DNA of 64,000 nt from Streptomyces sp. NBC_01497 (lineage in GTDB: Bacteria > Actinomycetota > Actinomycetes > Streptomycetales > Streptomycetaceae). Of this stretch, positions 4,776 to 57,147 are shown one piece after another. The stretch spans positions 3,844,001-3,908,000 of the forward strand of contig NZ_CP109427.1 in assembly GCF_036250695.1 (NCBI RefSeq). The letters are read 5' to 3'. Position numbers and translations under genes: made by a program. Within the stretch, counting starts at the first letter, position 1; every line of letters starts with the position of its first letter. The notes under the pieces are model-generated. The model did no database searches and was not told the origin of the DNA. It saw nothing but the letters and a program-made list of their open reading frames with translations.

Positions 4776-4796
4776 GGGGGCGTGCTCCTTTCCTTC

Positions 4797-4930
4797 CTTC
4801 TCGCCTACCGGGTTAGCTGACGGGTTCGGAGCAGGAAGGTCTCCTACGGGTGCGCCCAGCTGCCGACAGGCAGCAAGTAACGCCCGATTCACCCCAATTG
4901 TTGGTTCCCCGGTTTCCTTGCGGAATTCGG
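4797..4930 (-). promoter_or_regulatory. ydaO/yuaA-type c-di-AMP riboswitch
   Basis: Read on the minus strand, the leader of the M23 gene contains the conserved blocks of the ydaO class in order: AAACCGGGGAACCAACA, then GGGTGAATC, and about 75 bases later CCGAACCCGTCAGCTAACC followed by GGTAGGCG. It ends just before the AAGGAAAGGAG ribosome site. In Streptomyces this class precedes rpf and M23/NlpC cell-wall hydrolase genes and turns expression off when c-di-AMP is high. The boundaries are approximate. Confidence 0.9.
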
Positions 4931-5429
4931 CGCACGCGCACGGCGCCATCTCTGACGACGGCTGGGACGACCGCGCTGCGTTATCGAACGTTAATAGAGA
5001 CCTGCCCGTTATTCCAAGCTGTTCCCGATGATCGTTAACGACTTCGCATCGGATCAACCGGGACAGATGCTGGCGCAACCGGGCGAGTTGACCGCACTTC
5101 GGTGACACGGACGGACACGCGCGATGTCCACGATGCGGTGCGGGCCCGCCGGTGCCCCCGCCATCGGCGAGCGGAGTGCTCGCAACCGGGCACCCACAGT
5201 GACGAAACACCGAGGGGCGATCGGGAGCCCGAGCAGGCACACCTGCGGACGGACGATCGGACGGACCCACCGAGCGGACCCATCGGGCGGACCGGCGGAC
5301 CGGGCCGCGCGTCTGAGCCCCTCGCCCGGGCCCCTCTCGTTCCCTCGCACCCTTGCCCCGCGTACGCACGGCATCACCGAGGCGGTCCACGGCGTACGGC
5401 AGGCCCGCGCCCCGCAGCGCTCACAACGC
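4931..5429. other. Upstream region of the M23 gene; no gene seen
   Basis: Contains an AT-richer patch (4978-5045) likely to hold the M23 promoter, including the palindrome TCGTTAACGA at 5032-5041 and an AACGTTAAT segment at 4987-4995. The rest, toward the phosphatase gene, is GC-rich with short GGACCCACCGAGCGG-like imperfect repeats and no supportable reading frame. Confidence 0.45.
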
Positions 5430-53289: not shown

Positions 53290-53969
53290 GAGGCGCTTAC
53301 CAGCTTCTTGAGGATCGAGGTGAAGAATCCGAGACCGTCGGTACCGCCCGTACCGATCAGCGGCTCGACCGCGTGCTCGGGGTGCGGCATGAGCCCCACG
53401 ACGTTGCCCGCCGCGTTGGTGATGCCGGCGATGTCCCGGAGCGAGCCGTTGGGGTTGCCGTCGAGGTAGCGGAAGGCGACCCGGCCCTCCGCCTCCAGCT
53501 CGTCGAGCGTGCGCTCGTCGGCGACGTACCGGCCGTCGATGTTCTTGAGGGGGACGGTGATCTCCTGCCCGGCCGAGAAATCGGCGGTCCAGGCCGTGCG
53601 CGCGTTCTCGACGCCGAGCTTCTGGTCCTTGCACACGAAGTGCAGGTGATTGTTGCGCAGCATGGCGCCCGGCAGCAGGTGGGTCTCCGCGAGGATCTGG
53701 AAACCGTTGCAGATCCCGAGGACCGGCATGCCTGCCCTGGCCTGCTCGATGACCTGTTCCATCACCGGCGAGAAACGCGCGATGGCTCCGGCGCGCAGAT
53801 AGTCGCCGTAGCTGAAGCCACCGGCGAGCACGACCGCGTCGACCTGCTTCAGGTCCTTGTCGCGGTGCCAGAGGGACACGGGCTCGGCCCCGGCGATACG
53901 CGCGGCGCGCAGCGCGTCACGGTCGTCGAGCGTTCCCGGAAAAGTGACGACTCCGATGCGGGCGGTCAC
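53286..53969 (-). CDS. purQ: FGAM synthase glutaminase subunit PurQ
   Basis: 227-aa class I glutamine amidotransferase that supplies ammonia to PurL. Nucleophile C87 in GICNGFQ, triad His in MPHPEHA, N-terminal [12 protein letters not shown]. The GTG start overlaps the purS stop (GTGA). Confidence 0.97.
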
Positions 53970-54238
53970 TTCACCGGCTCCGTGATCGCTGAGGGCTCCT
54001 CGACCTTTACGGCGAAGTCCTCGATCACGGTGTTGGCGAGGAACGTCTCCGCCATCTCGTGGATGCGGGCGAGGGCGGCGTCGTCCACCGGTCCCTCGAC
54101 CTCGAGCTCGAAACGCTTTCCCTGACGGACGTCGGCGATGCCCTCGAATCCGAGACGCGGCAGCGCGCGCTGCACGGCCTGTCCCTGGGGGTCGAGGATC
54201 TCCGGCTTGAGCATGACGTCGACTACGACGCGTGCCAC
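53966..54238 (-). CDS. purS: FGAM synthase subunit PurS
   Basis: 90-aa PurS ([20 protein letters not shown]...), the small bridging subunit of the PurLQS complex. GTG 54238 is preferred: GGGAG lies five bases upstream, whereas the GTG two codons earlier overlaps it. First gene of purSQL, all three overlapping by four bases. Confidence 0.94.
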
Positions 54239-54385
54239 TGGCACTCCCGGTGGTGTGGTGCGGGCTGTTTTCGCTGTGTTCTTCGGGGGAGGCCCCGGGC
54301 TCCGGGGGGCGTCACCCCCCGACAGTGAATCCCCAGGGAATCCCCCTCGACCCCCCGAGCTCCCCTCAGCCTACCTGTACCGAGA

Positions 54386-54670: not shown

Positions 54671-55006
54671 GTGGCGCAGCGCGTAGTGGTCACTCTCTCC
54701 GACGACATGGACGGCGGAGAAGCGGCGGAAACGGTCGCGTTCGGTCTGGACGGCAAGTCGTACGAGATCGACCTGAATCCCGCCAATGCGAAGAAACTGC
54801 GCAAGGCCCTCGCGCCCTACGTGGCCGCGGGCCGCAGGCAGACAAATGCGAGCAAGCGCGGCAAGCTGCGCGCTTCGTACCATCACACGTCCCTCGACCC
54901 GGACCCGGCCGCCGTCCGCGCGTGGGCGCAGTCGCACAAGATGGACGTGCCGGCCAGGGGCCGCATCCCCAAGCGCGTCTACGAGGCGTTCCGCGAGGCG
55001 AGTTGA
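54671..55006 (+). CDS. lsrL: Lsr2-family nucleoid-associated protein (LsrL-type paralogue)
   Basis: 111-aa H-NS-like xenogeneic silencer. N-terminal dimerisation beta-sheet (MAQRVVVTLSDDMDGGEAAETVAFGLDGKSYEIDL is the usual start), then a C-terminal AT-hook-like domain with R96-G97-R98. GTG 54671 follows AGGAAAGGA. Streptomyces carry Lsr2 plus a paralogue LsrL beside the purine genes; the position here matches LsrL. The linker HHTSLDPDPA is shorter than a typical Lsr2 linker. Confidence 0.9.
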   Translation: MAQRVVVTLSDDMDGGEAAETVAFGLDGKSYEIDLNPANAKKLRKALAPYVAAGRRQTNASKRGKLRASYHHTSLDPDPAAVRAWAQSHKMDVPARGRIPKRVYEAFREAS

Positions 55007-55081
55007 GCCACGGGTGGGGGGGTGGGGGCGCTCACGACGCCCCGGGCGCCCTCGATTTGCCATCCACCCCGGGTGATCGGC

Positions 55082-55087
55082 TAGAGT
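55082..55087 (+). promoter_or_regulatory. -10 element before tRNA-Gly(UCC)
   Basis: TAGAGT, with TTGCCA 19 bases upstream as a poor -35. Gives a short tRNA leader of about 43 bases. Confidence 0.5.
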
Positions 55088-55136: not shown

Positions 55137-55208
55137 GCGGGTGTAGTTCAGTAGTAGAACGCCCCCTTTCCAAGGGGGAGGCGCAGTGTGCAATTCCTGT
55201 CACCCGCT
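55137..55208 (+). tRNA. Divergent tRNA-Gly (TCC), possibly non-elongator
   Basis: 72 nt with perfect acceptor (GCGGGTG/CACCCGC, T73), D-stem GTTC/GAAC and anticodon stem CCCCC/GGGGG with loop UUUCCAA, so tRNA-Gly(UCC). The D-loop is AGTAGTA, lacking the G18-G19 pair, and the T-arm GCAGT-GTGCAATT-CCTGT lacks UUC at 54-56 and closes with a U-C mismatch. Both elbow contacts found in all other tRNAs of this window are missing. Known parallel: staphylococcal non-proteogenic tRNA-Gly used for peptidoglycan bridges has UU for GG and UGUAAAU for the T-loop. Otherwise a decaying pseudogene. Confidence 0.8.
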
Positions 55209-55275: not shown

Positions 55276-55348
55276 GCGGACGTGGCTCAGTTGGTAGAGC
55301 ATCACCTTGCCAAGGTGAGGGTCGCGAGTTCGAATCTCGTCGTCCGCT
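55276..55348 (+). tRNA. tRNA-Gly (GCC), copy 1
   Basis: 73-nt canonical cloverleaf, anticodon loop CUUGCCAA region reading GCC, D-loop with GG (AGTTGGTA), T-arm GAGTTCGAATCTC. Confidence 0.95.
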
Positions 55349-55387: not shown

Positions 55388-55619
55388 GGCGTACCCGGGC
55401 ACGCTGGTTTCTCCTGCCGCATGCCCGCCCAGGATCCAGATCGTTCCCCACCTGACGCCGACACCGCGTCGGCCCCTCGCGTCGCGCTCTGATTCGGCTG
55501 CCGCGAGCCCGAGTTCGGCAAGCCGCTTCGCGATCGGGAGGACGGCCGCGTACGGGAAGACGGCGCGCAACGACACGGTCGTCACCCGTCCGCACGGAAT
55601 CCGGGTCCGGACCGTCGGG

Positions 55620-55742
55620 TCCGCGCTCAGCCGGGCCCGGACTACCGGGTCCGCACACAGCCGGGTCCCGGACTACCGGGTCCGCACTCAGCCGGGTCCC
55701 GGACTACCGGGTCCAGACAGAGCCGGGTCCCGGACTACCGGA
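55620..55742. repeat. 31-bp tandem repeat, about four copies
   Basis: Unit starts GGACTACCGGGTCCG and ends CAGCCGGGTCCC; successive copies are nearly identical. It lies between the two tRNA-Gly(GCC) genes in 520 bases otherwise without a gene. Confidence 0.9.
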
Positions 55743-55871: not shown

Positions 55872-55944
55872 GCGGACGTAGCTCAGCTGGTAGAGCGCAA
55901 CCTTGCCAAGGTTGAGGTCGCGAGTTCGAACCTCGTCGTCCGCT
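55872..55944 (+). tRNA. tRNA-Gly (GCC), copy 2
   Basis: 73-nt canonical cloverleaf, anticodon GCC; it differs from copy 1 in the D-stem/anticodon stem bases only by compensated changes. Confidence 0.95.
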
Positions 55945-56247: not shown

Positions 56248-57147
56248 TCACTTCCAGGTGATGCCCGTGATGCGCCGGTAGGCCTCCAGGTACTTGGCGC
56301 GGGTCGCCTCGACGACGTCCTCGGGCAGCTCCGGCGGCGGCAGCTCGCCGTTGCGGTCCCAGCCGGACGTGGGGGACGTCAGCCAGTCACGTACGTACTG
56401 CTTGTCGTACGAAGGCTGCGCGTGGCCCGGCTCCCACTCCTCGGCGGGCCAGAAGCGGGAGGAGTCGGACGTCAGCACCTCGTCGGCGAGGACGAGCCGG
56501 TCGCCGTCGAAGCCGAACTCGAACTTGGTGTCGGCCAGGATGATGCCCCGGTCCCGGGCCACGTCCCGGGCCCGGCCGTAGATGTCGAGCGTCGTACGGC
56601 GCAGCTGCGCCGCCGTCTCGGCACCGACCTGGCGGGCGACCTCCTCATAGGCGACGTTCTCGTCATGGTCGCCCACGTCGGCCTTCGTCGCGGGCGTGAA
56701 GATCGGCGCCGGCAGCTCGGACCCGTCCACGAGGCCCTCGGGCAGGGCGAGGCCGCAGACCGTGCGGGTCTCGCGGTACTCGGCGAGGCCGGAACCCGTG
56801 AGGAAACCGCGGGCGACGCATTCGACCGGGAGCATCTTCAGCGCTGTGCACACCATCGTGCGGCCCTCCCAGTCGGCGGGGGCGCCCGCAGGGAGGTCGG
56901 TGGAGATCACATGGTTCGGGACGATGTCGGTGAGACGGTCGAACCACCACATCGAGAGCTGGGTGAGGATCCTGCCCTTGTCGGGGATCTCCGTCGGCAG
57001 CACCCAGTCGTACACGGAGATACGGTCGGTCGCGACCATGACCAGGTCGCCGGCCTCGTTGCGATAGAGGTCGCGCACCTTGCCCGTATGCAGGTGCTGG
57101 AGGCCCGGAACCTCGATCGGCTGCGGTTTCTCCACGAATCCGGCCAT
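56248..57147 (-). CDS. purC: Phosphoribosylaminoimidazole-succinocarboxamide synthase
   Basis: 299-aa SAICAR synthetase, step 8 of purine synthesis (CAIR + aspartate + ATP). Motifs HTGKVRDLY, ATDRISVYDWVLPTEIPDKGRILTQLS, PVECVARGFLTGSGL, DTKFEFGFD and DEVLTSDSSRFWP are intact; it is the long (~300 aa) actinobacterial/fungal form. ATG 57147 with GAAGGG about 11 bases upstream. Confidence 0.96.
   Translation of the reverse strand: MAGFVEKPQPIEVPGLQHLHTGKVRDLYRNEAGDLVMVATDRISVYDWVLPTEIPDKGRILTQLSMWWFDRLTDIVPNHVISTDLPAGAPADWEGRTMVCTALKMLPVECVARGFLTGSGLAEYRETRTVCGLALPEGLVDGSELPAPIFTPATKADVGDHDENVAYEEVARQVGAETAAQLRRTTLDIYGRARDVARDRGIILADTKFEFGFDGDRLVLADEVLTSDSSRFWPAEEWEPGHAQPSYDKQYVRDWLTSPTSGWDRNGELPPPELPEDVVEATRAKYLEAYRRITGITWK

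Follow-up and report, generated by a model that had tools for sequence, protein, structure and literature searches.

A second, oddly built tRNA-Gly(UCC) conserved in Streptomyces and most close relatives looks ill-suited to the ribosome

The staphylococcal precedent and the build of the Streptomyces tRNA

Non-proteogenic tRNA-Gly(UCC) species of Staphylococcus aureus and S. epidermidis (Giannouli et al. 2009) are treated in passages of PMC4052509, PMC8007984 and PMC9976931, the first of which gives the GG at positions 18-19 as replaced by UU or CU, and describes changes that weaken binding to EF-Tu, A49-U65 substituting for G49-U65 and A51-U63 for G51-C63, with G49.U65 named as a strong EF-Tu pair. 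The diversion of aminoacyl-tRNA charge by Fem-type enzymes is called 'somewhat unclear' in most instances in a passage of the same paper (PMC4052509). For Streptomyces coelicolor, PMC4790382 has a single glycine added by FemX, where staphylococci add five.

We analysed a 64,000-nucleotide stretch of the Streptomyces sp. NBC_01497 genome (the window), in which the first-pass annotation had picked out a tRNA-Gly(UCC) with perfect stems, no G18-G19 in its D loop and both elbow contacts lost (Table 1). The anticodon is indeed UCC, and the gene scores 56.3 bits with the Rfam tRNA model (gathering score 29), while an ARAGORN run on the window made no call at this position. CCA is not encoded, the letters beyond U73 being CCG. 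The stems are not perfect, as the Rfam alignment places one unpaired, inserted U within the T stem (GCAG[u]G UGCAAUU CCUGU); taking the T loop as eight bases instead leaves a U.C mismatch in the stem. Compared in the Rfam alignment with the canonical tRNA-Gly(UCC) gene of the same genome, the odd tRNA has G to A at 18 and U to G at 55, with G19, U54, C56 and A58 unchanged, and A-U rather than G-C at 51-63. Only the first letter of G18-G19 has therefore changed, and of the two elbow contacts 19-56 is intact, while 18-55 is altered but swapped (A18 with G55). Glycine identity in tRNA resides in G1-C72, C2-G71, U73, C35 and C36, and all of these letters are intact. With RNAfold the cloverleaf was not the top structure for the odd tRNA, nor for the canonical UCC tRNA.

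The genome (G000, 9.08 Mb) gave 67 Rfam tRNA matches, and the separate canonical tRNA-Gly(UCC) that the first-pass annotation had suggested seeking is present (G000:C1:5654966-5655036:-), so that the odd tRNA need not be the decoder. The canonical tRNA has its acceptor ends, anticodon and U73 in common with the odd one, but is 71 rather than 72 bases long, and has G18/U55, G51-C63 and an unbroken T stem (GCGGG/CCCGT) instead of a bulged one. A tRNA-Gly(CCC) is found at G000:C1:4411275-4411345:- and tRNA-Gly(GCC) at three places, a glycine set that may be incomplete with 30 of the 67 tRNA places read. The other tRNAs of the window number nine, and their ordinary loops, as first annotated, were borne out: GTTC and GG are present in all 33 distinct tRNAs that ARAGORN called in the window and the own-genome loci, where the latter cover 30 of the 67 Rfam places and ARAGORN favours canonical tRNAs.

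The T loop of the S. epidermidis non-proteogenic tRNA-Gly presumably reads GUGC. As far as the cited passages describe the staphylococcal type, the likeness consists of an unusual UCC species accompanied by ordinary glycine tRNAs able to decode, an altered D loop, T loop and T stem, A51-U63, a low tRNA-detection score, and a genome which also encodes a glycine-adding Fem enzyme. A51-U63 matches, but the UU or CU reported at 18-19 is absent, with A18 G19 in the window and in 36 of 40 distinct copies (see below) and G18 G19 in four. At 49-65 and 51-63 the staphylococcal tRNAs are given as A-U and A-U and the window has G.U and A-U, one of the two replacements, and the T-stem bulge of the Streptomyces tRNA has no mention for staphylococci in the relevant passages of PMC4052509, PMC8007984 and PMC9976931. 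As staphylococci are an unrelated lineage, the resemblance would be convergent if the role is the same.

Table 1. Features at the odd tRNA-Gly(UCC) locus (window positions)
Feature	Position	Strand	Details	Source
purS, syntenic flank	53966..54244	-		ORF list
Lsr2-family gene (lsrL of the first-pass annotation)	54671..55006	+	putative GTG start	ORF list
-35-like hexamer TTGCCA (predicted promoter of the tRNA itself)	55057..55062	+		sequence
-10-like hexamer TAGAGT (predicted)	55082..55087	+	49 bases 5' of the tRNA	sequence
Odd tRNA-Gly(UCC)	55137..55208	+	72 bases; A18/G55, extra T-stem base, A51-U63, G49.U65, U73	
Canonical tRNA-Gly(GCC)	55276..55348	+		ARAGORN, Rfam
Canonical tRNA-Gly(GCC), second copy	55872..55944	+		ARAGORN, Rfam
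purC, syntenic flank	56248..57147	-	putative start	ORF list

Conservation, locus and promoter

A covariance model (R1) built from 15 sequences, with a family cut-off of E 1e-16 or better, found 92 copies of the odd tRNA in 90 of 121 Streptomycetaceae genomes, including 28/28 genomes of the own genus, and covering 15 of the 17 genera in the family sample. All 92 copies scored at least 84.8 bits, compared to 72.8 for the best ordinary tRNA in a 20-genome subset, and 91 are 72 bases long (71 in G082). The 31 genomes without it comprise 27/27 of genus g14, 3/3 of g11 and, from the two g16 genomes, G028, where the absence may be a gap, as the lsr2-like locus was not in the two stretches examined and the same-genus G016 has the tRNA. 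Of the 394 genomes in the class sample, 49 gave a match; 40 of these are own-genus with a best copy of at least 98.7 bits, while the nine outside the genus had at most 74.5 bits, going by score in the range of ordinary tRNAs. Twenty of the 345 class-sample genomes without a match were identified, so own-genus genomes may be among the rest; six suspected ones were found to be other genera. In the phylum sample, 17 of 396 genomes matched a pattern for genes resembling tRNA-Gly(UCC) in which 55 is not U, a pattern with part of the D arm fixed, so that some forms may escape it: 12 own-genus genomes with GTGC, and five others with GTCC and a normal GG.

The search was also run with a 24-base probe from the 5' half of the tRNA, which includes A18 and excludes the T arm. 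It matched at least 118 contig stretches, 117 of them with a full 72-base copy (the copy in L057 is incomplete), and among the matches listed the full copies belong to Streptomyces (115), one '[Kitasatospora] papulosa' and one Parcubacteria MAG. The T arm GCAGTGTGCRATYCCTGT was present in 116/116 full-length copies outside the Parcubacteria MAG among the matches listed, identical except for two loop positions, and as these were found by a probe without the T arm, this conservation goes beyond chance. The odd loops noted at first are thus conserved in related species. Tandem duplicates were seen at G449:C7, G098:C15, G015:C1 and L146:4171-4359, and a triplicate at G485:C9:294962-295267, with a spacing of about 115-160 bases; the G015, G098 and G449 duplicates and the G485 triplicate would fit a need for dosage.

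We compared 40 distinct 72-base copies, selected with a regular expression which fixes the length, G19, U54, C56, A58 and other letters, but leaves 18, 55 and the T-stem strands free. The stem pairs all form in 38 to 40 of the 40, and both partners have changed at each of the five pairs of the anticodon stem (columns 26-42, 27-41, 28-40, 29-39 and 30-38) and at columns 11-23, 3-69 and 6-66, giving the conserved cloverleaf with compensatory changes of a functional tRNA. G19, U54, C56 and A58 are in 40/40 because the expression fixes them, and agree in 20 genus representatives (regular expression) and in 12 covariance-model matches, the model leaving these letters free. Positions 18/55 are A/G in 36 copies, G/U in four and mixed in none, and as the four G/U copies belong to g2 and g5, which are sisters with support 100 in a purL+purQ tree, G/U is probably a single event within the family. 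Pair 51-63 is A-U in 40/40, 49-65 is G.U in 36 (the window copy included) and A-U in four, and 32/38 splits into 22 copies with C/G and 18 with U/A. No copy read is without the extra T-stem base, which lies one step lower in G010 and is a C in G054.

In each of the 20 loci examined, the odd tRNA follows a gene of the lsr2-like kind (the window and 14 others, plus G018, G022, G029, G046 and G054); among those listed, most plasmid relatives of the lsrL product are annotated as Lsr2 family protein. A tRNA-Gly(GCC) follows in all loci read but G007, where the contig ends, and starts at most 628 bases downstream in 104 of the 117 copies listed, some of the 13 misses having little flank. On the opposite side are purL and purQ (14/15 loci, not G010), and purC is within the examined stretch in 12/15 loci (not G007, G013 and G015), several kb off in some genomes; we take the two pur genes of Table 1 to be purS, from its place beside purQ/purL and its sequence, and purC. 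The g14 and g11 genomes have this locus too, but with no odd tRNA in it (4/4 read: L282, L285, L289 and L291), and cell-wall genes have no evident link with the odd-tRNA locus. The tRNA has a conserved predicted promoter of its own: the window hexamers are separated by a spacer of 19, and the pattern TTGnnn-N15-20-TAnnnT[CT]TGG precedes 104 of the 113 copies whose flank is long enough among the matches listed, with spacer 19 in 103 of the 104 and a distance to the tRNA of 47-51 in 102. Elsewhere in the window, short GC-rich direct repeats (gccgggtcc...actaccgggtccgc) were noted by eye at 55590-55700, between the two tRNA-Gly(GCC) genes, and a c-di-AMP riboswitch (ydaO/yuaA leader) at 4787-4942 on the minus strand (Rfam, 99.2 bits).

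The gene is nearly certainly real, functional, lineage-specific and under selection, and Streptomyces and most close relatives thus keep a second glycine tRNA whose odd build looks ill-suited to the ribosome. A streptomycete tRNA of such build may be new, as titles and abstract starts of the papers listed from the open-access literature, a scope outside which subscription journals fall, held no description of one in Streptomyces.

FemX and the relatives without the tRNA

The first-pass annotation had linked the tRNA to FemX. The FemAB family (PF02388, E 1e-10) is found in 120 of 121 family genomes (no match in G022), that is, in 89/90 with the odd tRNA and 31/31 without, so its presence does not discriminate; co-occurrence gives the link no support, and we dropped it as proof of role. 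Seven FemX orthologues of g14 and g11 are full length, with 74-79% identity over 371-374 residues to the own-genome protein. A second FemX-like gene was also seen in g11 (G011 and G025; L302 and L312), grouping with the second own-genome copy (L294) and that of G017 (support 82/72); it is possibly VanK-like.

Kitasatospora is reported to lack mbl. A single MreB-family gene was found in 9/9 g14 genomes tested (also in G004 and G015), and the purL+purQ tree, which leaves out G010 and G028, places g14 beside g3 and g4 (support 97 for g3+g14+g4, 52-61 inside). On these grounds we label g14 as probably Kitasatospora; going by the same tree, the odd tRNA would have been lost once or twice in the family. 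UDP-MurNAc-pentapeptide-Gly is reported for K. viridifaciens strains in PMC8092295, where muropeptides that lack DAP-linked glycine make up minor shares of the wild-type monomer rows seen (0.69% and 1.00%). If g14 is Kitasatospora, wall glycine there does not need the odd tRNA, and a wall of the same type is apparently made by relatives that do without it. The '[Kitasatospora] papulosa' record (L149), which the taxonomy places under Kitasatospora, does carry the odd tRNA, but its lsr2-like protein resembles that of the own genus most (82.7%, versus 68-70% to g14/g11), which makes the name doubtful.

The elbow swap and possible roles

The Parcubacteria match (L065, G845) is a tRNA-Gly(GCC) with A18 and G55. 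The swap is found in 2 of the 35 distinct tRNAs read from this MAG (L065, L313-L342; 45 Rfam places), namely L065 itself, beside which no other GCC species was seen, and a tRNA-Met resembling an initiator, and both would be needed for translation unless further copies were missed. As in the odd tRNA, 18 and 55 are swapped together and G19 and C56 kept, but the Parcubacteria tRNAs are without the T-stem extra base, have an encoded CCA, and apparently decode. Four further tRNAs of this MAG carry TCC T loops. A18.G55 is thus probably a different tertiary pair with which a tRNA can still decode, and its presence in seemingly decoding tRNAs means that the swap alone is no proof of exit from translation. 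The first-pass argument from the elbow is thus weakened and finds no support, with G19-C56 kept, 18-55 swapped jointly, and two apparently decoding tRNAs sharing the swap; judged by sequence, the T-stem bulge and A51-U63 are stronger hints of a non-ribosomal role.

The departures from consensus, together with the absence from g14 and g11, could point to a decaying, functionless duplicate, but with a T arm identical bar two loop positions (116/116 listed), two-sided stem changes and a conserved promoter this is barely conceivable, and we ruled it out on the conservation of the tRNA. The strongest rival to a wall donor is a special decoding tRNA, whose bulge and swapped 18-55 would be tolerated or offset one another, and which would read GGA/GGG, perhaps with altered efficiency or at certain growth stages. 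In its favour, U33, the UCC anticodon, G15-C48 (39/40), G19-C56 and U54-A58 are kept (the last four letters being fixed by the regular expression), the likely initiator tRNA and only tRNA-Gly(GCC) seen in the Parcubacteria MAG have A18/G55, and U32-A38 of the window copy is also found in the own-genome GCC and CCC glycine tRNAs. However, a canonical tRNA-Gly(UCC) is already in the genome, all copies read have the extra T-stem base, and C32-G38 pairing is possible in 110 of 116 copies listed versus 0/33 own-genome tRNAs, and we regard a decoding role as rather unlikely. That FemAB presence does not track the odd tRNA would suit a glycine donor or uncharged sensor in another process, such as another aminoacyl transferase, secondary metabolism or regulation by the glycine supply; a cluster-specific biosynthetic role sits badly with a tRNA kept at a single core locus in 15 of the 17 genera sampled (the partner search covered FemAB only), and altogether we consider such use distinctly improbable.

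The leading mechanism, which we favour tentatively, is that the odd tRNA supplies glycine for peptidoglycan via FemX; the grounds for preferring it are the EF-Tu-face anatomy of the T stem, the existence of a canonical counterpart, the bridge of one glycine and the precedent in staphylococci. Against it stand the FemAB genes of the 31 genomes without the tRNA, the DAP-linked glycine of Kitasatospora, the elbow swap in seemingly decoding tRNAs elsewhere, the G49.U65 of the window copy, and a locus with no evident cell-wall neighbours. EF-Tu grips tRNA at T-stem sites near pair 53-61 and at 51-63. GlyRS should charge the odd tRNA because the glycine identity letters are kept, and the glycine-loaded form would be a weak EF-Tu ligand, free in the cytosol, because of the extra base by pair 53-61 and A51-U63 at the EF-Tu grip. 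The weak EF-Tu binding proposed at first would thus come from the bulge and A51-U63, rather than from the elbow changes, with the strong pair G49.U65 speaking against it. The most likely user would be FemX, adding the single glycine to the peptidoglycan precursor, with the odd tRNA as a supplement to the canonical Gly-tRNA donor, not a replacement or requirement. The analysis shows the conservation, the anatomy, the conserved promoter and the canonical counterpart, while expression, charging, weak EF-Tu binding and use by FemX are what we infer. It may be, although we would stop just short of an even chance, that a tRNA withdrawn from translation by its T-stem bulge became a cytosolic wall-glycine donor independently of staphylococci, and that some lineages of the family, with Kitasatospora probably among them, subsequently gave it up but retained FemX.

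The coupled 18-55 swap is a caution against concluding from elbow changes alone that a tRNA no longer serves translation. Fem-type enzymes and the ribosome are competitors for aminoacyl-tRNA, and the odd tRNA is a conserved candidate for the diversion of charge, in genetically tractable Streptomyces and with a natural contrast in the genera without it, which makes the question directly testable.
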